From the NCBI GenBank assembly GCA_938034445.1, contig CALHLD010000034.1, positions 1 through 64,000 on the forward strand: a stretch of DNA of 64,000 bases, given 5' to 3'. Under the pieces are notes generated by a model. It worked only from the letters and a program-made list of their open reading frames with translations. It ran no database searches and was not told the origin of the DNA. The translations under genes and the position numbers were made by a program. Shown here piece after piece: positions 32,022 to 46,356 of the stretch (position 1 is the first letter of the stretch; the number at the start of each line of letters is the position of its first letter). This DNA comes from an uncultured archaeon (GTDB taxonomy: Archaea; Thermoproteota; Nitrososphaeria; JACIWG01).

Positions 32022-34871
32022 TCAAATAAACCTTTTCTTAAGATTTCTTTTACTCACTTCTATAATTCTGTTTACAAGTTCATCCGACAAAATCTTATGC
32101 TTTTCCAATATTTCTTCTACATCCTTCAACGTTAAGGTAGGCTCTGCTAGCACAAACGATGCTATACCACCATATTTCTCAATAACTTGAGCTGTTTTCG
32201 TAATCCTTCTGTAGATTCTTTTTAATTGTTTAGGCGGCTTTGCCGCCCCCAACCTCATCCTATGTGCCAATCTTTTAATTTTCTCCTCATCTTCTTGAGA
32301 CAATCCAATCTTTTTTGACTCACACTTTGGACAACTTATTCCATAGAGCAAGTTTTTTACTCTAAAATTTTCTACGTAATTCCAGCATTCTGTGCACACC
32401 ACTGTAAAGGCTTCCTCTAAAAGTCTTGCTCTCACAACCTGCACTATAATATGTTTCAGCCTTTCTGGGGGCACAATCTCCGTTCTCCTACTTAACTCTT
32501 CAATACCAACCCTTGCTATTGGTGAAAGCTCCTCTTCCAAAACAGTTTCTAACTTAATTTCTTTAGACCTTATCATTTCAAGCACCTTTATAGAATTTTC
32601 TATATCTGTTTCACTTCTTAAGGTACTTCTTAAAGCCTCTTCTATTACAGCCGTATCCTTTAATGCCTCCATTAACTTCTGTATTGAAATATCAGAAAGT
32701 GTTGCCTCCTTTGATATTGCACCAAACTTTTTTGCAACATTAACAAAATGTCTCTTAAATATTCCTGAGCCAAGCAATTCTTTCCTAACAATCTCTTCCA
32801 GTTGCTGAGGTTCAATGCCATTTAATGCGTCTACCACATCTTGTTGTGTAAGCCATGGTGCCCTCAAAATAATCCGATATGGGTCAAATTGGACTCCAAC
32901 AGGGTACCCAAACCTATTAGATAGTATGTAAGATAGTGCTCTTCCCAAAGTTCTGTTTACTAGATGCCCCCAGCAACATTGTACTATAATAAATTCTTTC
33001 CACTTTTCTATCGTAACAGTTTTATCTGTGGGTACTGGAAAACCTTTTTCTATATGCTCAAATATCTCTTTTAAACCGTATTCACATTCATTGGGGGGAA
33101 TTGAATATTCTTGACATATTAGGCTTACTATTTTTTCTTTACCAATACTTTTATGATAATATTCCTCTACTCTTCTTCTTAATATTCCGACTTCCTTCGC
33201 GATCTCATATGGTACAGGAATTTCTTCACCGACCCAAAATGGAATCGCGCCCGACGGATCATCTTCCGGTCTAACATGAACTTTTCCATCAGAAATATTC
33301 TCAACCCTCCAGATGGCTCCTCTTAAAATAAATTTTAGGCCAACTTCACCATATTCGGTTACAAAACTTTCATCTAAAGTTCCAACTGGCTCACCATTTT
33401 CGTCTATAACAAGATAATGCTTTTCTTCAGGTATCATTGAAAGTGTGTTGAAATAGTATTGGTAAAGTGGTCCAATCCTTAAAGGTTTTCTAAAGTTGTT
33501 GTCTAAAACCCTTGCAAGAGGCGGTCTCCTTTCACATAAGTACCTTAAAACCATCATAAATTCTTCTTTAGTAAGATTTCTATAAATAAAAGACCTTCTA
33601 ACTAGCTCGAAGACGTCTTCTAAACTTAGTTTATGTCCATCTAAAAGTATTCCAGCTAACTGGTGTGCTAAAACATCCAGAGGCTTGTCTATGACATGCG
33701 TTTTCTCTAGAACCCCCTCTACAGCCCTTCTAGCTATTATAACAGATTCCCAAAAGTCGTCAGAATCTTGAGTTACTATGATACCCTTTGCCACCATACC
33801 AATCTTGTGACCACTTCTTCCAACTCTCTGAACAAGTCTGGTAACCTGTCTTGGTGAATTATATTGTATAACTAGATCAAGCCTACCTATGTCAATGCCC
33901 ATCTCAAGAGAGCTAGTGCAAATTATACTCTTTAATAGGCCCTCTTTCAATTCCCTTTCTGCCTTAACTCTTGAAGATTTAGATAGTGAGCCATGATGAA
34001 CAGATATTGGAAATTCGCTTTCCCAGACCTTAAATCTACTACCAAGAATCTCGTTTTCTATTCGTGTATTTGTGAATACAAGTGTAGAGTTATGTTCTTC
34101 AATCAACTTCCTTATTAACCTAAGACGGGCTACAACCTCTGGGAACATGAAAAGCTTTGATGCGAGAAGGTAGTCTTGGGGTTGAGGCCGTGGATAAACT
34201 ATTTCAACCTTAAGCTGTCTATCAATTCTAACATCTATAATCTTGCAGCCTCTATCTGTTCCAACAAGAAATTTTGCAACATTTTCAGGCGAACCTACTG
34301 TAGCGGATAATCCAATTATTTGAAAATCTTCACCAACGTTTTCTCTTAAACGTTCTAGACCAAGAGAAAGCTGTGCCCCCCTTTTGTCTTCAGCAAGTTC
34401 ATGAACTTCGTCAACGATAACCCATTTTACAGCTTTCAAATGTTTCCTAATTCTCTTTGCTGGAAGTATTGCCTGAAATGTTTCGGGTGTAGTTATTAAT
34501 ATGTCTGGTGGTGCAATAGACTGTTTACTTCTTTCTAAAGTGGTTGTATCGCCATGTCTTACAGCCAACTTTAAATCAAACCTTTTACACCACCACTCGA
34601 GACGGTCAAGTAAGTCCCTGTTTAACGCCCTTAATGGCGTTATATAGAGTAGTTTGATGCCTGGAAACCTTTCCTGGGAAATGATCTTGCTTAAAATTGG
34701 TAGAAAGGCTGCTTCAGTTTTACCTGTCCCTGTTGGTGCGACAAGCAAAACATTTTCTCCGCCTAATATTTGTGGAATCGCCCTAGTCTGAGGTTCAGTT
34801 GGTTCTCTAAACCCGAATTCTTCTATAGCCTTTTGTACTGTTGACGGAAATAGCTTAAACACATTTTCCAT
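32022..34871 (-). CDS. lhr: Lhr-type DEAD/DEVH-box helicase
   Basis: A 949-residue superfamily 2 helicase with the Lhr-core layout. Two RecA domains are followed by a winged helix, a beta-sheet bundle and an Lhr C-terminal domain. Motif I is APTGTGKTEAAF (about 43-54), motif II VDEVHEL, motif III LSATVG and motif VI QRVGRSGH. Near the C-terminus are two Cys pairs, C-x2-C (VVCTECW) and C-x2-C (SCPKCES), that should bind zinc. Lhr proteins unwind RNA:DNA hybrids and branched DNA in repair. It leads a same-strand group with the 231-residue protein and the phosphoesterase. Confidence 0.94.
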   Translation of the reverse strand: MENVFKLFPSTVQKAIEEFGFREPTEPQTRAIPQILGGENVLLVAPTGTGKTEAAFLPILSKIISQERFPGIKLLYITPLRALNRDLLDRLEWWCKRFDLKLAVRHGDTTTLERSKQSIAPPDILITTPETFQAILPAKRIRKHLKAVKWVIVDEVHELAEDKRGAQLSLGLERLRENVGEDFQIIGLSATVGSPENVAKFLVGTDRGCKIIDVRIDRQLKVEIVYPRPQPQDYLLASKLFMFPEVVARLRLIRKLIEEHNSTLVFTNTRIENEILGSRFKVWESEFPISVHHGSLSKSSRVKAERELKEGLLKSIICTSSLEMGIDIGRLDLVIQYNSPRQVTRLVQRVGRSGHKIGMVAKGIIVTQDSDDFWESVIIARRAVEGVLEKTHVIDKPLDVLAHQLAGILLDGHKLSLEDVFELVRRSFIYRNLTKEEFMMVLRYLCERRPPLARVLDNNFRKPLRIGPLYQYYFNTLSMIPEEKHYLVIDENGEPVGTLDESFVTEYGEVGLKFILRGAIWRVENISDGKVHVRPEDDPSGAIPFWVGEEIPVPYEIAKEVGILRRRVEEYYHKSIGKEKIVSLICQEYSIPPNECEYGLKEIFEHIEKGFPVPTDKTVTIEKWKEFIIVQCCWGHLVNRTLGRALSYILSNRFGYPVGVQFDPYRIILRAPWLTQQDVVDALNGIEPQQLEEIVRKELLGSGIFKRHFVNVAKKFGAISKEATLSDISIQKLMEALKDTAVIEEALRSTLRSETDIENSIKVLEMIRSKEIKLETVLEEELSPIARVGIEELSRRTEIVPPERLKHIIVQVVRARLLEEAFTVVCTECWNYVENFRVKNLLYGISCPKCESKKIGLSQEDEEKIKRLAHRMRLGAAKPPKQLKRIYRRITKTAQVIEKYGGIASFVLAEPTLTLKDVEEILEKHKILSDELVNRIIEVSKRNLKKRFI

Positions 34872-36297: not shown

Positions 36298-36870
36298 CTA
36301 ACTCTCAGAACTTTCTTTTGCGGGCGCTGCAAGCATTAAATTTAAGAGTGACTTCAGGTCTACTTCCACAAGACTTCTCCATCCCAATGAAAGCATTTCA
36401 CCTTCCCTATTCAAGTAGCCCTTTCTTATAAAACGTCTAATGTTCCATTCCACTCTCCATTTTGGAAGTTTTTCCTTAAGAAGTCTCTCAACCTCATTTA
36501 TTGGAGCTTTTCCATGTTTTGCTGTTAAATAGCTTAATATGATAGTTAGTGCAGCCATGTCATCAACGCTCATTCCAGATGCTGAAGCGTCCCTTAAACT
36601 GAGACTGTCCTTAAAGATCACATAATATCTGGCACTCTCAGCCTCCTCCCCTACTGCTGGTGCTAATATTTCTCCGGACTCATTCACAACCTTTATGGTT
36701 AAACCTATTCTCTCAAGTTCTGACGAAAGCACTTCTAAAACTTTTTTATAATCTTTTCCAAGACTTCTTTTTAGCTCCCATCCTTTAACGCCAGGCGCCC
36801 TAACTTTAGGCAATAGTAGAAGCTGCAAAGCTTTCCTAACTTTTATCTTCATCTCCTCTTCTGAACTCAA
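36298..36870 (-). CDS. Kite-type tandem winged-helix subunit of an SMC-like complex, Nse3/MAGE-like
   Basis: A 190-residue protein. The N-terminal winged helix (about 8-55: KVRKALQLLLLPKVR, ELKRSLGKDYKKVLEVLSSEL) is followed by a linker with a strand (RYYVIFKDSL). A second winged helix (about 105-175) shows AALTIILSYLTAKHG, INEVERLLKEKLPKW, NIRRFIRKGYLNREGE and LGWRSLVEVDL. The order and spacing match the MAGE/Nse3 homology domain, which ends with a 'YL...GPR' region, better than bacterial ScpB. That is my visual comparison, not a search result. The TTG start overlaps the kleisin stop (TTGA), so translation is coupled. It is last in the operon nuclease-SMC-kleisin-Kite. Confidence 0.65.
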   Translation of the reverse strand: MSSEEEMKIKVRKALQLLLLPKVRAPGVKGWELKRSLGKDYKKVLEVLSSELERIGLTIKVVNESGEILAPAVGEEAESARYYVIFKDSLSLRDASASGMSVDDMAALTIILSYLTAKHGKAPINEVERLLKEKLPKWRVEWNIRRFIRKGYLNREGEMLSLGWRSLVEVDLKSLLNLMLAAPAKESSES

Positions 36871-37631
36871 TGTTTCTCACCTAACTTTTGTATTGAAATT
36901 GCGAGGGATCTAGGTTGCCTTTTTTGTCCTCCTTTAACGATCTCAATCTTTTCCTCTAGTGGTTTTATCTCTAGGCTCACGTATCCCATTGAAATTATGT
37001 GCGCTAATAGCACTGCTCTGATTATTGTCTCATTATAATCTTTTCCTTTAACAATTTTCCAGTAATCCACTCTTTCTTCAGCCTCTAAAATTTTATCAAG
37101 TTCCATGCTCAATTCTTCAAGCCTCCTATTTAATTCCTCTTCTGTCAAAATCTTCATTTTCAAAAGTTCTTCTTTGTCTAAGGTTGAAAGTTTAGTTTCT
37201 TCGACAAATTCCTCCCTAAACCTTTCTGAAAGTGGTAGTAGTGCATTCCAGTAGTTTGCTGCACGGATCATCTCATTTAATGTTACCTGTTCTATCTTAA
37301 CTATAGGATGCCAGCTTCTTGAAAATATTTCAGCCAATCTTTCAGGCGATAACGTAAGTATCTTTAGTTCGACTATAAGCGGGTCAACATAAAGCGATGA
37401 TGCCTGATACCTGACCCATTTTTCTTGCAGTTCAACTATTCCGGCTAGCAGTCTTAAAGCTTCAGCGTCCATTAAAATTTCATCCAATTCTTTTAGATTT
37501 GGTAAAAGTTCCTTTAGCCTTAGAACATATTCTTTGACATCAACCTTGAATGGGTCAAGGTTTAAACCTATAACTTTATTTAAAATTTCAACTATCTTAA
37601 GAATTTTTTGAACCCTTTCACTTTCTTGCAA
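36867..37631 (-). CDS. Kleisin-like (ScpA/Nse4-type) subunit of an SMC-like complex
   Basis: A 254-residue, mostly helical, acidic protein. The N-terminal helices (about 1-60) could contact the SMC neck. The middle has EALRLLAGIVELQEKWVRYQASSLYVDPLIVELKIL, resembling the ScpA helical segment. The C-terminal part (about 208-245: NETIIRAVLLAHIISMGYVSLEIKPLEEKIEIVKG) looks like the small winged helix by which kleisins cap an SMC head. The start TTG lies 14 bases inside the SMC gene and the stop overlaps the Kite gene. Sequence similarity alone is weak; gene order makes the call. Confidence 0.65.
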   Translation of the reverse strand: MQESERVQKILKIVEILNKVIGLNLDPFKVDVKEYVLRLKELLPNLKELDEILMDAEALRLLAGIVELQEKWVRYQASSLYVDPLIVELKILTLSPERLAEIFSRSWHPIVKIEQVTLNEMIRAANYWNALLPLSERFREEFVEETKLSTLDKEELLKMKILTEEELNRRLEELSMELDKILEAEERVDYWKIVKGKDYNETIIRAVLLAHIISMGYVSLEIKPLEEKIEIVKGGQKRQPRSLAISIQKLGEKH

Positions 37632-39633
37632 TTGAGCCTACACCACTTTTTCCATCAACTATTTGAGTGACAATATAGTTTACATTGTCGCCGTATACGT
37701 TAACTTGGCTTGGTGTTATCACAATATACTGTTTTGGTTCATCTTGAACCATTTGAAATATTGCCCTAAACATTCTTTCCCTGTTAACTGGGTCCATGTG
37801 CACATCAAATTCGTCAACTGCAACGATGGGTGATGCTGAAAGCTTTTGGAGTGCAAGAAGGAAGGCAATTGTAGCGGTACTCCTTTCACCGCCACTTAAT
37901 GTATAAGCGTCTAAGACAGCTGGCTTCGCTCCTCTGAATCCTATTAAAAGTTCAAGGCCTGATTTCTCAAAGTCTTCCTCATTAGTTAATCTAATATAAC
38001 CGTATGCGTTTAACCCTCTTAGAAGCTCCTGATATTTTGGGTTGACAAAATCCAATATCCTGTAAATTTCATCATGCCAGACTTTCTTTCTTTCTTCAAG
38101 CTCCCGTAAAACTACTTCTTTATTTTCTAGAACTTTTTTAAGCTTTTCCTCTAGTTCCATGTACCTTGAATAATATGTTTCAAATATGTTTTTTGCTTCA
38201 TCTGGGACATCCGAATATGTTTCAAGTTGAGCGTTTATGGAAGAAAGTTCACTTTCTATATCGTTTAACTGCCTTACTGTAGGCGGTCTTGGTTCCATTG
38301 CCTCTTTTTGTTTTTCTAAATTTTCTAGTTCTTGTTTTAGCTCATTTAGGTTGCGTTCAATTTCAGCAACTTCTTTCTCGTGAACTCTTTTTTGATATGC
38401 TTGGAGTGTAGCATTCGCTTTTTCCTCAGAATATTTTCTTATCAAAGTAAATAGGCCTTCTTCGATTTCTGTAATAGATTTTTCAATCAAATTTATTTCA
38501 TACACTATTTCATGAACTTTCTTGGTTTCTACATCAGATTCCCTCTTGTAACCTTCTAAAAGTATTTCAATATCCTTCTGTAATAATCTTATATCCTTAT
38601 TGTCTTCCTTTATTTTCTGTAAAATATTGTTCAACTTAGACAAGATGTTCTCGAATGAAGTCATCATTTCCGAAAGTGATTTAATTCTAGACTCTACTGC
38701 CTTTTTGTCAGCATCTAAAAAGATAAGAGAATGGTAACTTTTCTTAAGCTTGTTAAAATTAGAATACATGTCCTTTTCTAGTAGGCTACATTTTTCCTCT
38801 GACAAAAGCAGTTTCCTAGAAAGTTCACTTAGCTCCTTTCTCTTTAGCTCAAGCTTATTTGAAGTCACCTCTATTCCTTTTTCTAATTTTATAACTTGAG
38901 CCCAAAACTTTTCTCTTAATAGGCTGTCTCTTTTAACTATGAGCTCCTGTTTCTTCACATATCTGTCATAAACGTCTTTCCAGTGAGAGAGCGTTTCTTT
39001 AGCCATGTCCATAAGCTGCTTTATGGCCGTTTCCTCGCTAACTAAGCTCTTCAACTTATTTTGCGATTCTATAATCTTTTCCCTATAACCTGTCAAACCT
39101 ACAACTTCCTCAACCATCTTCAGCTTATCTTGTGGACTTACTATAGCAAATTCTTCAACCATTCCCTGATGCATTATAAGGAGCATGTTGTCTGGATTAA
39201 TGTTAAAGCTTGAGAGAATCTCTCTAACTTCAGAAGACGTTGTCTCCTTGTAGTCTATTTCAAACCAGTATGATCCATCTTTTCTCAAATATCTTGAAAT
39301 CATAAACGTATCAGAGTGTGAGAGAGGTATTGGTCTTTTCCCGTTGAAGCTACTGTTATCAAAGACTATTGTTACACGTCCAAGGTCCTTACCTCTTCTA
39401 ATAAGGTCACTTAACCTTCTAGATCTTTCTGTATAAACTTGTCCAAGTGCAACAGAGATTCCTAAAAGTATTGAAGACTTTCCAGAACCGTTTGGCCCAC
39501 ATATTATATTCAATCCTCTCGTTAGGGGAATTCGAGCATACTCGTATGACATAAAATTTTCTAAGATAACTTCACGAATGTATGTTAACGGTCTTCTTCT
39601 TGTATCCAATATCTTTTCTCCTGATTGCAACAA
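37618..39633 (-). CDS. Short hinge-less SMC-like ATPase with Smc5/6-type head motifs
   Basis: A 671-residue ABC-type head with a coiled coil. Walker A is GPNGSGKS (46-53) after an NFMSY N-terminus, and the Q-loop has HQG at 155-157. Coiled-coil segments cover about 165-515 with a break at EPRPPTVRQ (447-455). The signature is LSGGER (579-584), and Walker B plus D-loop is VAVDEFDVHMDPVNRER (604-620). DEFDV with 'MD' is Smc6-like, while 'MDP.N..R' is Smc5-like. No 150-residue globular hinge and no CxxC zinc hook can be found, and the protein is about half canonical SMC length. It overlaps the kleisin gene and lies 44 bases after a RecB-type nuclease gene. Likely a DNA-tethering or repair ATPase. 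TTG start. Confidence 0.85.
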   Translation of the reverse strand: MLQSGEKILDTRRRPLTYIREVILENFMSYEYARIPLTRGLNIICGPNGSGKSSILLGISVALGQVYTERSRRLSDLIRRGKDLGRVTIVFDNSSFNGKRPIPLSHSDTFMISRYLRKDGSYWFEIDYKETTSSEVREILSSFNINPDNMLLIMHQGMVEEFAIVSPQDKLKMVEEVVGLTGYREKIIESQNKLKSLVSEETAIKQLMDMAKETLSHWKDVYDRYVKKQELIVKRDSLLREKFWAQVIKLEKGIEVTSNKLELKRKELSELSRKLLLSEEKCSLLEKDMYSNFNKLKKSYHSLIFLDADKKAVESRIKSLSEMMTSFENILSKLNNILQKIKEDNKDIRLLQKDIEILLEGYKRESDVETKKVHEIVYEINLIEKSITEIEEGLFTLIRKYSEEKANATLQAYQKRVHEKEVAEIERNLNELKQELENLEKQKEAMEPRPPTVRQLNDIESELSSINAQLETYSDVPDEAKNIFETYYSRYMELEEKLKKVLENKEVVLRELEERKKVWHDEIYRILDFVNPKYQELLRGLNAYGYIRLTNEEDFEKSGLELLIGFRGAKPAVLDAYTLSGGERSTATIAFLLALQKLSASPIVAVDEFDVHMDPVNRERMFRAIFQMVQDEPKQYIVITPSQVNVYGDNVNYIVTQIVDGKSGVGSIARK

Positions 39634-39677: not shown

Positions 39678-40376
39678 TTAACTTTTAGCTTCAAGTCTTT
39701 TTTGAATACTTTTAATATTTTTCTGTATGCTCTTAAAAGCATTAACCATTTCCATAAAAAATAGTACTCTTTTAGCCTGTTTCTTCATACCCTCGTATCC
39801 TTCAGTTTTACGTAATATCCCCTTCTCTCTCATTAAAGAAAGATGTTCTCCCAACTTTTCTAAGCTAATGTTTAAGCTTTTTGCACATTTGTCGAAAGTT
39901 TCTTTTTCAGAAAGTGCTTTAAGAATCTTTAGCTCCTTTCTAGTTATGTTTTCGAAAACAGCTAAGCTTACTAACCCATATTCTTCTAACACATCCCTTA
40001 AAGCTTCTCTAACAATATAATCTAAGTCTTCAGGCTCTATTAGATAATAGTAGTCTGGAAACAAAAAAACTTTTACTTTAAGTTCTTCAGCCAAAACTTC
40101 TGTAGCTTTGTCAGCATAACCTTTACATATGATCAGAGGCTTTAGTTTAAGCACCATAGAATTTGCGTAAGCTTGTCTCACATCACTTACCCCAATTCTT
40201 CCTGCTTTAACTTCAACACAGTATACATCCCCACTTTCATCCTTTGCTATAAGGTCTACTTCAAAAACCTGTGTTCCATTTAGTACAATCTTCTTGTTCT
40301 TTTCCAAAATTTGAAACCCCATCTTTTTAAGAATACTCTTAGCTATCCTTTCACTACTTATACCTCTTCTGGACAA
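39678..40376 (-). CDS. RecB-family (PD-(D/E)xK) nuclease with winged-helix C-terminus
   Basis: A 232-residue protein that leads the SMC operon. The nuclease core reads FEVDLIAKD (E39, D41) and YCVEVKAG (E55, K57), with a downstream QAYANSMVLK helix carrying the motif Gln. From about 155 the protein is helical and like an ArsR/MarR winged helix (TRKELKILKALSEKETFDKCAKSLNISLEKLGEHLSLMREKGIL), then ends in a basic amphipathic helix. A TTG start at 40376 follows AAGGAG at a good distance. I infer that it cuts or processes DNA handled by the SMC complex; no experimental basis is known to me. Confidence 0.82.
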   Translation of the reverse strand: MSRRGISSERIAKSILKKMGFQILEKNKKIVLNGTQVFEVDLIAKDESGDVYCVEVKAGRIGVSDVRQAYANSMVLKLKPLIICKGYADKATEVLAEELKVKVFLFPDYYYLIEPEDLDYIVREALRDVLEEYGLVSLAVFENITRKELKILKALSEKETFDKCAKSLNISLEKLGEHLSLMREKGILRKTEGYEGMKKQAKRVLFFMEMVNAFKSIQKNIKSIQKRLEAKS

Positions 40377-42683: not shown

Positions 42684-45506
42684 TTAACAATATCTTCTTA
42701 TACTAAGTATTTCTTTGTAAAGGTTATCAAGTATTTGCTGATAATCCACTTTACCTTCCTCTATCGAATCCATGATCTTCTTTAACTTTTTTGTAGTTTC
42801 TTCTGAAATAAATTCATAGAATCTTTTGTTTAGGTAAAAGTATACTTGATACCCTTTCTTTGTTGGAATTATATCCCTTCTATCGTTCTCCTTCACATAT
42901 CCTCTTTGAAAGAGGGTTGTAACAATTTTTGCATATGTTGATGGCCTACCGATATCTTTTTGTTTCATTAACTTTATTAGGTCTGATTGCTTTAAAAGTG
43001 AGATTGTCGGCGCTTTCCAACTTCTTATACTTACAGCCTTAAATTCTCCTTCATCCACTTCCGGAATAAGACTTATCTTTTGGACAAGATTGAATCCTTC
43101 TTCCAATATCCTTATGTAGCCTTCAATAAACTCAATCTTGTTGTTAAATCTAATCTCATACCTTTCTTTTAGCACCTTTACTTGTTTCATTTGGCTTGCT
43201 ATAAATCTTCTAAATATTTGATCATACAGCTGAAGGTGTTCTTGTGTGAGTTTTTTCGCAAGCTTTATGCTTCCTAGAGTAAGCATATGCTTTAATCTTG
43301 TAGCGTCAATTGGTCTAGTTGGCCTTATACATTCGTGAGCACCCTCCTTAGACCATTCTCTTGGCTTAAAGAAGGTTTCATTAAATTTGTCAACTATATA
43401 CTCTTTTGCAACATTTTGTCCAGTAGGAGAAACTCTTATGCTATCTGTTCTATGGTATGTTATTAATCCTAATTCGAATAAATCTTGTGCAATACCCATA
43501 GTCTTGTGTACGCTAAACTTTAATGCAATAGCAGCCTCTTGGAGTAATGTGTCTGTAGAATATGGTGGTGGTGGATTAATTTCTATTTCCTCCTTAGACA
43601 TGCATCTTACATGATATTGTGTCGTGCGCAGTTTTTCAACTTCCTCCTTAACAGCACTATCCTCTATTAATGGCTCTTTTACAATAAATTCCAGTCCATT
43701 TTCTAATACTATTTCAAAGAATGTCTGGAAACTTTTTCTAGATTCATTTGCTCGATTAATAATCCATCCTAGAACAGGTGTTTGCACTCTTCCTGCTGAA
43801 AGTGTCTTATCGTTAAACCTATCCCAAAGTTTTGCGCTCAACTCGAAACCTAGCCATCGGTCTTCGATTCTTCTAACCATCTGTGCCTCTACAAGTCTCA
43901 TATCCATATTTCTCATGTTTTTTAACCCATTCACTAAAGCTCTTTTTGTTATTTCATGAAATTCTATTCGTTTTATTTGCGATGTGTATGGTGAGAGTAC
44001 TGTTGCTATATCCCATCCTATCTTTTCTCCTTCGGCGTCTGCGTCTGTACCTATTAATATTTGGTCTGTTTCTAGCGCAAGTTTTCTTAAAGCTTCAACT
44101 ATCTCGGCTTTATCAACTAACTCTTTTTGACAATATGGACACTTTTTCACGGGTCTAGTGAAAGTCTTTTTGCATTTTCTACAAACTTTTATAGTAATGT
44201 ACGATGGTACAAATTTTCCATTTAATTTTATTACACCATGTACACTATTCCTTCCCAAATCGTATGTAGGTAAATCGAAAATATGTCCTCCACTTGCAGT
44301 TATGTTAAGAATATAATCGCCTGTACTCACCTCATAAACTGTTAAGCTGTTAACTATTCTTTTACTCGGTTTTCCAAAGAATCTTGCAATCGTTTTAACC
44401 TTGTTCGGTGATTCGACAACTAAGAGTGCCGTTGTTATAGGATCTTTAAATTGTGGGCTTATTGTGCCCGCCATAAGCATTTTTATTGTAGCCCTATCTC
44501 TGTCAACTTCTTCCAAAATTTCATTTAAGTTTACTTCATTAAAATTTTTCCACTCTATTTCTTCAGAAAATAGTCTAGATTCTTTAACGAGTCCATTAAA
44601 TGCTTTTTTATCATCAACAATTGTGACAGAAATTCCTTTTGAAATCCCTCCAATAAACATTCTTGATGTTCTTCCTGAAGCCTGTATATATGCTACAGTA
44701 TCGGGTACAACCAAAAATGGTTTATCTTTTTCCGAACTTATCGTTATATTCGGAGAAGATCTAACTTTTTCTATAATTTCTTTCTTTGACAAAAGTTCTA
44801 TAAGAAACATTCTTATCTTTTCTAACTTTTCTTTTATTGCACCCTTATAGCCTTCAAGTCTAACGTTACTATACATTGAATATAAAATCTCTTTTATAAC
44901 ATTAGATGGCACTTGATGTAATATGTTCCTTAATTCGATAATATATTTTTCAATAAGCGCCTGTTCCTCCTCTCCCACAAGTTCCTTTAAATGTGAAAGT
45001 AGGATTATAGCACGGGTTGGAGTGAAATCCTTTTCCATATCAAGGCTTATCCTAAATTTAGGTACTCCCGCAAATATAGCATACCTTATTGCATGCGGTA
45101 AATCTATTCCTCTTGCAAGAGGACTCCTATAGGATGCAATTCCAATTAAAAGCTCAACCTTACCTGAAGAAAAATCTTCTAAAATTCTAGCTTTAGCCCT
45201 ATTATATAATGAAACACTAAATTTTTCTTTCAATAATCTCTCATATAATCTTTCAGCAAATTCTAGACCTTTATCCATTGGCACAAATATGATTCCACCA
45301 GAGCCGAGTAGCCTAACAAGTTGCACAACCTTTTCTTCAACATCTTCATTGTCTTCAACAAAAAGGTCTTCTATATTTCTAATAAATTCTATCCTGGACC
45401 CGATTTCGAAGCCCATGAGTTCCTTAAACAACTTTATTCTCTTAGTCCTTTTTGCTCTCGGAGACGCACCTGACACTATAATATTTCCAACCCTTATACT
45501 GTTCAC
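42684..45506 (-). CDS. rgy: Reverse gyrase, C-terminal part (second helicase domain plus type IA topoisomerase)
   Basis: The 940 residues from GTG 45506 hold the second RecA-like domain (LIGIASYRSPLARGIDLP, ASGRTSRMFIGGISKG), a Toprim domain (LLVVESPNKVKTIARFFG, GTDADAEGEKIGWD), a zinc finger (CRKC, CPYC), RRIEDRWLGFELS and LSAGRVQTPVLGWII. The topoisomerase active-site Tyr is in LITYHRTDSIRVSPTG. This frame is open to 45656 and its upstream codons (IIAQGLRLIELRREYQKNLKKGG) continue the protein, so GTG 45506 is internal, not a real start. Joined to the N-terminal part by one base skipped at about 45633, the protein would be about 1,220 residues, normal for reverse gyrase, the hyperthermophile enzyme that introduces positive supercoils. 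Confidence 0.9.
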   Translation of the reverse strand: MNSIRVGNIIVSGASPRAKRTKRIKLFKELMGFEIGSRIEFIRNIEDLFVEDNEDVEEKVVQLVRLLGSGGIIFVPMDKGLEFAERLYERLLKEKFSVSLYNRAKARILEDFSSGKVELLIGIASYRSPLARGIDLPHAIRYAIFAGVPKFRISLDMEKDFTPTRAIILLSHLKELVGEEEQALIEKYIIELRNILHQVPSNVIKEILYSMYSNVRLEGYKGAIKEKLEKIRMFLIELLSKKEIIEKVRSSPNITISSEKDKPFLVVPDTVAYIQASGRTSRMFIGGISKGISVTIVDDKKAFNGLVKESRLFSEEIEWKNFNEVNLNEILEEVDRDRATIKMLMAGTISPQFKDPITTALLVVESPNKVKTIARFFGKPSKRIVNSLTVYEVSTGDYILNITASGGHIFDLPTYDLGRNSVHGVIKLNGKFVPSYITIKVCRKCKKTFTRPVKKCPYCQKELVDKAEIVEALRKLALETDQILIGTDADAEGEKIGWDIATVLSPYTSQIKRIEFHEITKRALVNGLKNMRNMDMRLVEAQMVRRIEDRWLGFELSAKLWDRFNDKTLSAGRVQTPVLGWIINRANESRKSFQTFFEIVLENGLEFIVKEPLIEDSAVKEEVEKLRTTQYHVRCMSKEEIEINPPPPYSTDTLLQEAAIALKFSVHKTMGIAQDLFELGLITYHRTDSIRVSPTGQNVAKEYIVDKFNETFFKPREWSKEGAHECIRPTRPIDATRLKHMLTLGSIKLAKKLTQEHLQLYDQIFRRFIASQMKQVKVLKERYEIRFNNKIEFIEGYIRILEEGFNLVQKISLIPEVDEGEFKAVSIRSWKAPTISLLKQSDLIKLMKQKDIGRPSTYAKIVTTLFQRGYVKENDRRDIIPTKKGYQVYFYLNKRFYEFISEETTKKLKKIMDSIEEGKVDYQQILDNLYKEILSIRRYC

Positions 45507-45612: not shown

Positions 45613-46356
45613 CTAAGCCCTTGAGCTATTATTTTCTTCTGAAAAACCTGCCAAACTTAGCACTTTATCAACATTTTTTGACGATTTTAATAGTGCGTCA
45701 ACATCGTCTACCACAATTAAATCGAAAATATCTCCATTTACCATTTCAAAGTTTTTTGAAAGGAAGGCTGATGTTGTAACCAATATGTGATACTGTCTAC
45801 TAATAATCGTTTCTTTCTCCAATTCCTTTTCCTTTTCACTTAACATTGAATGATATCTTGCAATTTTTACTGTCGCCCCAATTTTTTCTAAAAATGATAT
45901 AATTCTTTGATAAGTTTGTTCTGCTAAAATTGCAGTTGGAACAATTATGTAGCATTTTCTGTTTTTTAGAGCATAGTAGAGTGAAAGGATTATTCCAAAA
46001 ACACTTTTACCCATCCCTGTTGGAGCTATAATTGCGAAATTTTTTCCAGAAAATATTCTTTTAGCCCACGTTCTCTGGGCACTCCAAAGCCTACTTCCCG
46101 TAGTCTTGTAAAATAAATCATTTAACTCCTCTAACTGTATTTCAATTTTGTATAAGCTGTGCAAATTTTTTAACGAACCATGCTCTTTCAAGATTTCTAA
46201 AATATATGATAGTGTGTTTTTTCTGTCTCTTATAAGTTCTAAAATTTTTTCATCAGGTAAAGGCAAACATTTTTCACATGGAACTTTTAAAGAGAGTCTA
46301 TAATCGTTTATATCGTCTCCACAGTTTGGACAAAGTTTTAGAAAGATAGCTTTCAT
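45613..46356 (-). CDS. rgy: Reverse gyrase, N-terminal part (zinc finger and first helicase domain), frameshifted
   Basis: The 247 residues start at ATG 46356. A zinc finger (C9-x2-C12 and C27-x2-C30) is followed by the helicase gate with RLWSAQRTWAKRI (Q-motif-like), Walker A APTGMGKS (111-118), VPTAILAEQTY and Walker B LIVVDDVDALLKSS. The last eight residues (after FSEE) are out of register with the family, and the frame stops at 45613. The continuation lies in the frame of the 42684 gene. One extra A in GAAGAAAATA (45639-45630) is the simplest cause. If the sequence is right, this is a split helicase half-domain. Nanoarchaeum has a split reverse gyrase, but there the break is between the helicase and topoisomerase modules. 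Confidence 0.88.
   Translation of the reverse strand: MKAIFLKLCPNCGDDINDYRLSLKVPCEKCLPLPDEKILELIRDRKNTLSYILEILKEHGSLKNLHSLYKIEIQLEELNDLFYKTTGSRLWSAQRTWAKRIFSGKNFAIIAPTGMGKSVFGIILSLYYALKNRKCYIIVPTAILAEQTYQRIISFLEKIGATVKIARYHSMLSEKEKELEKETIISRQYHILVTTSAFLSKNFEMVNGDIFDLIVVDDVDALLKSSKNVDKVLSLAGFSEENNSSRA

Follow-up and report, generated by a model that had tools for sequence, protein, structure and literature searches.

Three linked genes that are conserved together, encoding an SMC, a kleisin and a kite, lie in the window (the whole stretch of archaeal DNA that was analysed, 64,000 nucleotides). We consider it likely, with a probability of roughly 0.8, that this trio encodes an archaeal Smc5/6-like complex composed of one SMC, one Nse4-like kleisin and one Nse1/Nse3-like kite, a reading for which no interaction or function data exist. 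The scope of an earlier note on this DNA, which had singled out the kite alone as Nse3-like, was too narrow, and a three-subunit complex is the more likely reading. We call the trio "Smc5/6-like" and not Smc5/6 because two SMCs, two kites, a hinge and Nse2 were looked for and not met; the Nse2-type domain (zf-Nse) was above its cut-off in none of 151 genomes, with one weak row overall and none in the window's own genome. The three genes are as follows.

36298..36870, minus strand: kite subunit (tandem winged helix, Nse3/MAGE- and Nse1-like), 190 aa, TTG start
36867..37631, minus strand: kleisin, 254 aa, whose orthologs match Pfam Nse4_C
37618..39633, minus strand: SMC ATPase, 671 aa, short arms, likely SMC5/6-related, no hinge detected, 14-base overlap with the kleisin gene

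The genes are tightly packed in the order SMC, kleisin, kite, with the kite coming last and overlapping the kleisin gene by 4 bases. We inspected 44 fetched kite loci with their flanks, which represent 22 of the 33 related kite genomes, three further loci and 19 of the 157 phylum-wide kite genomes; one locus at a contig end without an SMC (L010) was left out, giving 43 complete trios. The order SMC-kleisin-kite on one strand is found in 42 of these 43, the exception being L092, in which the SMC gene is inverted and lies about 2 kb away, and each of the 43 has one SMC and one kite. Lengths range from 468 to 756 residues for the SMC (median 602), 186 to 299 for the kleisin (median 254) and 158 to 290 for the kite (median 190), where the shortest SMC and the shortest kite are truncated at contig ends and starts were assigned by script.

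The kite open reading frame is real and conserved, and it is more than a product of chance. It reads on the minus strand; the plus strand across 36298-36870 has many stops. The earlier note had described a Kite-like frame with a series of sequence elements, and all of them are present in the order it quoted: KVRKALQLLLL, DYKKVLEVLSSEL, YYVIFK, AALTIILSYLTAKHG, FIRKGYLNREGE and LGWRSLVEV. The parts of the protein that matter for its comparison with other kites are these.

36607..36846, minus strand: first winged helix of the kite (about residues 9-88), placed by alignment and the secondary structure of models, with invariant P26-G27, E32 and G38
36355..36567, minus strand: second winged helix of the kite (about residues 102-172), ending in R165-x-x-x-E169
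36364..36378, minus strand: codons R165 to E169 of the kite, with R and E invariant in 42/42 aligned kites

The 42 aligned kites are 25-84% identical to the window kite, and P26, G27, E32, G38, K134, Y152, R165 and E169 are invariant among them; at W164, in the "GWR" end, 35 of them carry W and seven carry L. (The kite alignments A1 and A5 omit L010 and L057, A5 also omits L104, and L089 and L106 enter A5 from a later start.) The earlier note had also proposed that the kite has a "W-G-P-R" end in common with MAGE. This likeness is loose: the MAGE form of this end is W-G-P-R-A-x-x-E, and only R-x-x-x-E (R165, E169) of the claim held up; NSE1 has an R-x-x-x-E at the positions that the profile aligns with it. 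The window kite contains no cysteine, so that a RING is not possible.

A protein search recovers the kite from 33 of 61 related genomes (own genome counted): none of the 24 members of one family (f3) has it, and 33 of the 37 other genomes do. With a profile built from 24 kites, matches appear in 157 of the phylum's 398 genomes and in 78 of its 164 genera (own genome counted), nearly always with one copy per genome and with a single match in the own genome. The genome-wide scans with the kite profile and with Pfam MAGE, Nse4_C and Nse1 covered these 398 genomes of one phylum, with Asgard archaea outside the sample. This distribution bears on the possibility that the archaeal genes were acquired from eukaryotes by lateral transfer, a possibility weighed here without a tree of eukaryotic kites or kleisins. 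We regard such a transfer as very unlikely in view of the breadth of the distribution and the deep divergence of the kites, and because each subunit of the trio is single, where eukaryotes have a pair of SMCs and a pair of kites.

Judged by sequence profiles, the kite family is closer to MAGE/Nse3 and Nse1 than to ScpB. This is a statement about the family and not about the window protein alone: since the latter gave no meaningful family match (Pfam, NCBIfam) or PDB match, nor a Pfam MAGE match in the scan of its own genome, the subfamily argument rests on the family. Searched against 177,635 PDB sequences, the kite profile found 7dg2_C best, a chain named "MAGE domain-containing protein" in an Nse1-Nse3-Nse4 entry, with NSE1 behind it (E 0.04-0.12). 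The E-value of 7dg2_C was 0.0072 for a profile of 24 sequences and 0.003 for one of 42, and a top hit to MAGE was the outcome that the earlier note had named as support. The E-values are marginal overall (0.003-0.12), and a designed repeat protein came second with the 42-sequence profile (E 0.014). A better match to ScpB or MukE, which would have refuted the earlier note's assignment, was not found, as no ScpB and no MukE chain appeared at E<=10. A control profile made from 12 ScpB proteins of the same genome group, in which 54 of 61 genomes had ScpB, retrieved five ScpB-type structures (E 2e-36 to 6e-7) without bringing up any MAGE or Nse chain; the PDB match sets of the two profiles are disjoint.

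The same preference emerged when profiles were compared with each other. HMM-HMM comparison of the kite gave 70.7% against MAGE (E 3.8e-5, 116 columns, score 35.4) versus 0.5% against ScpB, with ScpB against MAGE at 0.2%, and 30 column-shuffled kites reached at most 1.9% and a score of at most 19.1. The MAGE/Nse3 side of this comparison is thin, consisting of four sequences of which only the first 127 residues were used.

Pfam models scanned over the archaeal genomes point to the kite gene as well. Pfam MAGE (PF01454) was above its curated cut-off in one of the 398 genomes, at the kite, and each of its 13 top-ranking rows falls on a kite gene. Among the 27 rows with E<0.01, 19 overlap a kite, seven are in genomes without a kite match and one lies elsewhere; the 14 control genomes gave no match. 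The best MAGE rows in orthologs cover the second winged helix (MAGE positions ~118-206). Scanning 42 kites against Pfam, with the best 25 of 32 families considered, returned MAGE in four at E<=10 (best 2.8e-4) and SMC_Nse1 in six (best 0.0068), together with chance-looking families that reach 5e-4, near the best value for MAGE. Neither ScpB nor MukE was found in a scan of 24 kites with all families listed, and Pfam ScpB (PF04079), run over 61 genomes of which 33 carry a kite, hit none of these kites at E<=1, yet was above its cut-off away from the kite in 54 of the 61. For positions relative to the kite, we used only MAGE rows below 0.01 and Nse4_C rows below 1e-3, and the kites of G084, G115, G254, G324, G336, G415 and G431, whose coordinates are unlisted, were excluded as positions.

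Being below the MAGE-domain cut-off, the kite is filed as MAGE/Nse3-like. We claim no preference for Nse1 over Nse3, or the reverse, because the kite resembles both and because Pfam Nse1 proved unspecific over the 398 genomes (none above cut-off, four of the 12 best rows at kites). The suggestion that the window protein reflects an archaeal source of Nse3 thus held only in part. As the kite resembles Nse1 as well as Nse3, it is better described as a relative of an undivided Nse1/Nse3 kite, with the direction of descent left without a tree.

The predicted fold supports a tandem winged-helix kite at low model confidence. Kite models were built from four sequences; AlphaFold2 gave a mean pLDDT of 54.8 and a pTM of 0.44 for the window kite and a mean pLDDT of 67.2 and a pTM of 0.44 for an ortholog that is 40% identical (L011). 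In both low-confidence models, helices and strands are predicted in the tandem-winged-helix order. A Foldseek search of 350,542 chains placed MAGE, Nse3 or Nse1 in all top five positions for the window model (E 5.4e-4 to 4.5e-3) and in all top seven for the ortholog model (E 2.9e-5 to 1.9e-3). ScpB followed at rank 17 and rank 9, respectively, and a Wadjet JetABC chain was at rank 10 for the window model (E 0.13). TM-scores by query length were low (0.30-0.47).

VIA-align, which compares geometry only and ignores sequence, ranked ScpB first for both low-confidence models. For the window model, ScpB reached a Z of 8.0 (71 aligned), Smc5/6 chains 7.6, 7dg2_C 7.3 (155 aligned, rmsd 7.1) and MAGE-A3 7.0. 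For the ortholog model, ScpB reached 9.5 (76 aligned) and 9.2 (133 aligned, rmsd 7.8), MAGE-B1 8.4, MAGE-G1/NSE1 8.1 and 7dg2_C 7.9 (159 aligned, rmsd 7.6). The best Smc5/6 or MAGE chain was therefore 0.4 (window) and 1.1 (ortholog) Z below ScpB, and MukBEF chains scored 7.0-8.1 against the kite models. Middling Z values of the ortholog model are shared with MarR and ORC winged helices, and such values are common for winged helices. Geometry alone hence leans slightly to ScpB, and the subfamily assignment comes from sequence profiles and not from geometry. Taken together, the earlier note's claim that the kite has the element order of Nse3/MAGE, a eukaryotic Smc5/6 partner, is supported by sequence profiles, HMM-HMM comparison and Foldseek, while superposition by VIA-align leans to ScpB.

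These results bear directly on a first rival, in which the kite would be a ScpB that has diverged, and the trio an additional SMC-ScpA-ScpB complex, shortened but otherwise of the usual prokaryotic type. In its favour, the tandem winged-helix fold is common to kites, VIA-align puts ScpB first with both models, the N-terminal part of the kleisin aligns with ScpA (E 0.035), and the window SMC taken alone scores prokaryotic Smc first. Against it stand the Pfam ScpB model, which marks no kite and finds its ScpB elsewhere, the disjoint PDB sets, the HMM-HMM value of 0.5% and the preference of the SMC family profile for Smc5/6. We consider this rival very unlikely. A second rival, convergence, would make the kite a generic tandem winged-helix DNA-binding protein. 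The marginal E-values of the kite and the middling VIA-align scores shared with MarR and ORC winged helices speak for it; the shuffled nulls below 2% speak against it, as do the three linked genes, which point to three subunits of one complex. We judge convergence, too, to be very improbable and retain the reading of the kite as the MAGE/Nse3-like subunit of an Smc5/6-like trio.

The kleisin family matches Nse4, again at the level of the family, as the window kleisin alone matched no Pfam family, Nse4_C included, and gave nothing useful against NCBIfam. The region concerned is the C-terminal one.

36897..37064, minus strand: C-terminal winged-helix region of the kleisin (about residues 190-245), Nse4_C/ScpA-C-like, placed by alignments

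A Pfam scan of 41 kleisins found Nse4_C in 15 of them, with a best E of 3.5e-7 against 0.0013 for the next family and with ScpA absent from the best 25 of 33 families, and no ScpA was found in a scan of 23 kleisins with all families listed. Against the PDB, the four best matches of the 41-sequence profile were three Nse4 chains and EID3 (E 1.6e-4 to 4.5e-4), which span 70-80 C-terminal positions, and ScpA-type chains came next (E 0.035-0.088); the N-terminal part of the family profile resembles the ScpA N-terminus (E 0.035). The 23-sequence profile gave a weaker and mixed result, with EID3 at 0.012, ScpA at 0.02, an unrelated M protein at 0.023 and Nse4 at 0.034. The kleisin alignments A2 and A6 omit L010, L040 and L057, and A6 also omits L106.

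Genome-wide, Pfam Nse4_C was above its curated cut-off in 13 of the 398 genomes. Its matches gather at the kite: 52 of the 56 rows below 1e-3 share its strand and adjoin or overlap it, with a median gap of 27 bases; two more share its strand and sit about 2 kb upstream, and two are in kite genomes without listed kite coordinates. One of the 14 control genomes gave an Nse4_C match, below the cut-off. The two upstream matches are on G134:C19 and G230:C1, and each of these genomes also has a second, weaker Nse4_C match; this placement suggests a different gene order, with the kleisin before the SMC, in the family concerned (f40).

The ATPase motifs of the SMC are intact, and the top-scoring matches of its family profile are Smc5 and Smc6.

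39475..39498, minus strand: Walker A, residues 46-53, GPNGSGKS, with 7 of 8 positions invariant in 24/24
37885..37899, minus strand: ABC signature LSGGE, residues 579-583, with SGGE invariant in 24/24
37810..37827, minus strand: Walker B, residues 603-608, ending in D607-E608, invariant in 24/24

In the PDB search with the SMC family profile (A3), the ten best matches were all Smc5 or Smc6 (200-220 bits), followed by prokaryotic Smc (195 bits), SMC2 (151), SMC1 (137), SMC3 (129) and SMC4 (116). A profile of canonical SMCs from 12 of 30 loci of the same class instead found prokaryotic Smc and then full-length SMC2, SMC3, SMC1 and SMC4 (220-334 bits), with no Smc5/6 among the best 60 of 83 PDB rows. 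When the window SMC was searched alone, two prokaryotic Smc constructs came first (116 and 114 bits) and Smc5 third (105 bits), and its best NCBIfam model, SMC_prok_A, was far below cut-off. The ASRP model (NF045487) was rejected as an identity for the window SMC, at 82.5 bits versus a cut-off of 300.

A hinge was not detected. The window SMC has no match to the hinge family (PF06470) at E<=10, and the hinge is not among the best 25 of 36 Pfam families for 24 SMC orthologs; the canonical SMC of the own genome does match PF06470, with 61 bits. The trio SMCs are short and without a detected hinge (window SMC and 24 members), and their mode of dimerisation is an open question.

Archaeal SMCs termed "SMC5/6-related" have been shown to group with Smc5 and Smc6 (Yoshinaga and Inagaki 2021, via PMC9389158), and the window SMC most likely is one of them. 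PMC9389158 describes the same SMC split, and its main text makes no mention of kleisin, kite or Nse. These SMCs were thus already known. We found no report of archaeal Nse4- and Nse1/Nse3-like partners in the open-access literature searched; bioRxiv and most subscription journals were outside the search, and priority is therefore unsettled.

The trio exists beside a canonical SMC complex. Elsewhere in the own genome lie a canonical SMC (1178 aa), then a 213-aa open reading frame, then ScpB (96.7 bits); therefore, kite and ScpB coexist in this genome. The 213-aa frame is possibly a divergent ScpA and is taken so by position only. Pfam ScpA has no match in the own genome, and because the frame beside the canonical SMC is also unmatched, this null is uninformative on the trio. 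Among the other SMC genes of the own genome (L051-L054, which are not trio loci), a 3.3-kb contig of the same assembly (G000:C37, L051) carries a C-terminal SMC part with SMC_prok_B as its best model (TIGR02168, 397 bits); this contig may be a stray from another organism. In a further family (f5; G010, G013, G040; L045, L043), the kite is present in three of four genomes, two of which are 99% and 95% complete, a canonical SMC was not found at E<=1e-20 in any of the four, and ScpB was above cut-off in none of the four. It is conceivable that the trio is the sole SMC-kleisin complex of these genomes.

Upstream of the SMC, the window carries a possible accessory gene.

39678..40376, minus strand: possible accessory gene with a YraN(UPF0102)/Mrr-like nuclease domain and a C-terminal winged helix, 44 bases upstream of the SMC

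Because a nuclease-like gene adjoins the trio elsewhere in only one of the fetched loci (L009, same genus), it is probably not a core part of the trio. Its winged helix has a weak match to a Csa3/CARF model (E 5.6e-5). Its presence nonetheless raises a third rival, in which the trio would serve mainly in anti-plasmid or antiviral defence, as a Wadjet/Lamassu-type system that combines a kite-kleisin-SMC core with the upstream nuclease. In support of this rival, the gene lies close to the SMC, the SMC matches PADLOC models of mad3, LmuB, AriA and JetC, the Wadjet JetABC chain was found by Foldseek at the rank given above, and Smc5/6 itself has been called a viral restriction factor (PMC9458440). 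On the other side, kite and kleisin have no PADLOC model match at E<=0.01, and the SMC matches spread over many ATPase families. The nuclease is not conserved beside a trio that is itself widespread and nearly always has one kite per genome. Searches with the kite profile likewise yielded no credible match, with no relative among viral contigs, one chance-level match among plasmids and none among phages. We consider a defence system unlikely.

Returning to the Smc5/6-like reading, we propose the following assembly, by analogy. Two SMC heads would be bridged by the kleisin, with its N-terminal part on one neck and its C-terminal winged helix on the other head, and a kite homodimer would sit on the middle of the kleisin, giving SMC2-kleisin-kite2. 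The kites and the engaged heads may then clamp a DNA duplex in an ATP-dependent manner, as Nse1-Nse3-Nse4 do in yeast Smc5/6; both the assembly and the clamping are inferred. In the yeast clamp, for which Nse4 is the scaffold, Nse3 secures the DNA from above, and only the Nse3 kite touches DNA, whereas in MukBEF both MukE copies do so (PMC9191643). The inferred symmetric kite pair of the trio would recall MukE. Without a hinge, the dimer would have to rest on the heads, the kleisin, the kites or the coiled-coil tips. Most likely, and again by inference, the complex holds or translocates DNA during repair or chromosome maintenance, alongside the canonical SMC complex. A split in eukaryotes would have turned its one SMC into Smc5 and Smc6, and another its one kite into Nse1 and Nse3.

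Among known systems, the eukaryotic Smc5/6 core (Smc5, Smc6, Nse4, Nse1, Nse3) has the three subunit kinds in common with the trio, and its members are the best or near-best matches of the trio families. The trio differs from it in having one SMC and one kite, a median SMC length of 602 aa, an undetected hinge and no Nse2-type domain above cut-off. SMC-ScpA-ScpB resembles the trio in its row of SMC, kleisin and kite and in its tandem winged-helix kite, and ranks first in the geometry-only comparison, but stands apart from the trio's kite and SMC families in the sequence-profile tests. ASRP, coalescin and Sph are short archaeal SMC-like ATPases, as is the trio SMC; most ASRPs have a zinc hook (PMC9389158), whereas the window SMC has no Rad50_zn_hook match. 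Wadjet/MksBEFG and Lamassu are kite-based or short-armed SMC systems with a nuclease nearby, like the window locus. They differ in that the trio's kite and kleisin lack a PADLOC match and that the nearby nuclease is UPF0102/Mrr-like and not conserved beside the trio; JetD of Wadjet (JetABCD) is Toprim-like. ScpB, Wadjet/Lamassu, ASRP/coalescin and a generic winged helix were considered as identities and rejected.

The trio suggests that the Smc5/6 machine is older than eukaryotes. Whether Smc5-6 gained and lost Hawks or represents a distinct branch was left open by Wells et al. 2017 (PMC5228436). A linked SMC-kleisin-kite set in which all three families match Smc5/6 points to the distinct-branch answer and makes it testable. 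In addition, the trio offers a three-protein, apparently hinge-free model of the Smc5/6 core. It also qualifies an earlier statement, made about the SMC-ScpA complex, by which SMC complexes of archaea are without kites (PMC7055376). A bolder reading, towards which we lean by a small margin, is that archaea already had a minimal but complete Smc5/6, equipped with a kleisin and a kite of its own, as a branch distinct from SMC-ScpAB. Eukaryotic Smc5/6 would then have inherited its kites and lost no Hawks, the pairs Smc5/Smc6 and Nse1/Nse3 would have arisen by duplication of one archaeal SMC and one kite, and the archaeal machine would be hinge-free.

A helicase gene is a frequent neighbour of the trio.

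32022..34871, minus strand: Lhr-type helicase (DEAD, WH_Lhr, DEAD_assoc)

It was found near the trio in 17 of 25 loci of the first set and in six of 19 of the second, the fetched stretches being unequal in length, and a functional link to the trio is possible but uncertain. Beyond the trio, two adjacent open reading frames on the minus strand (42684-45506 and 45613-46356) resemble, from a reading of the sequence only, the topoisomerase and the N-terminal helicase parts of a reverse gyrase, which may have been split by a frameshift.
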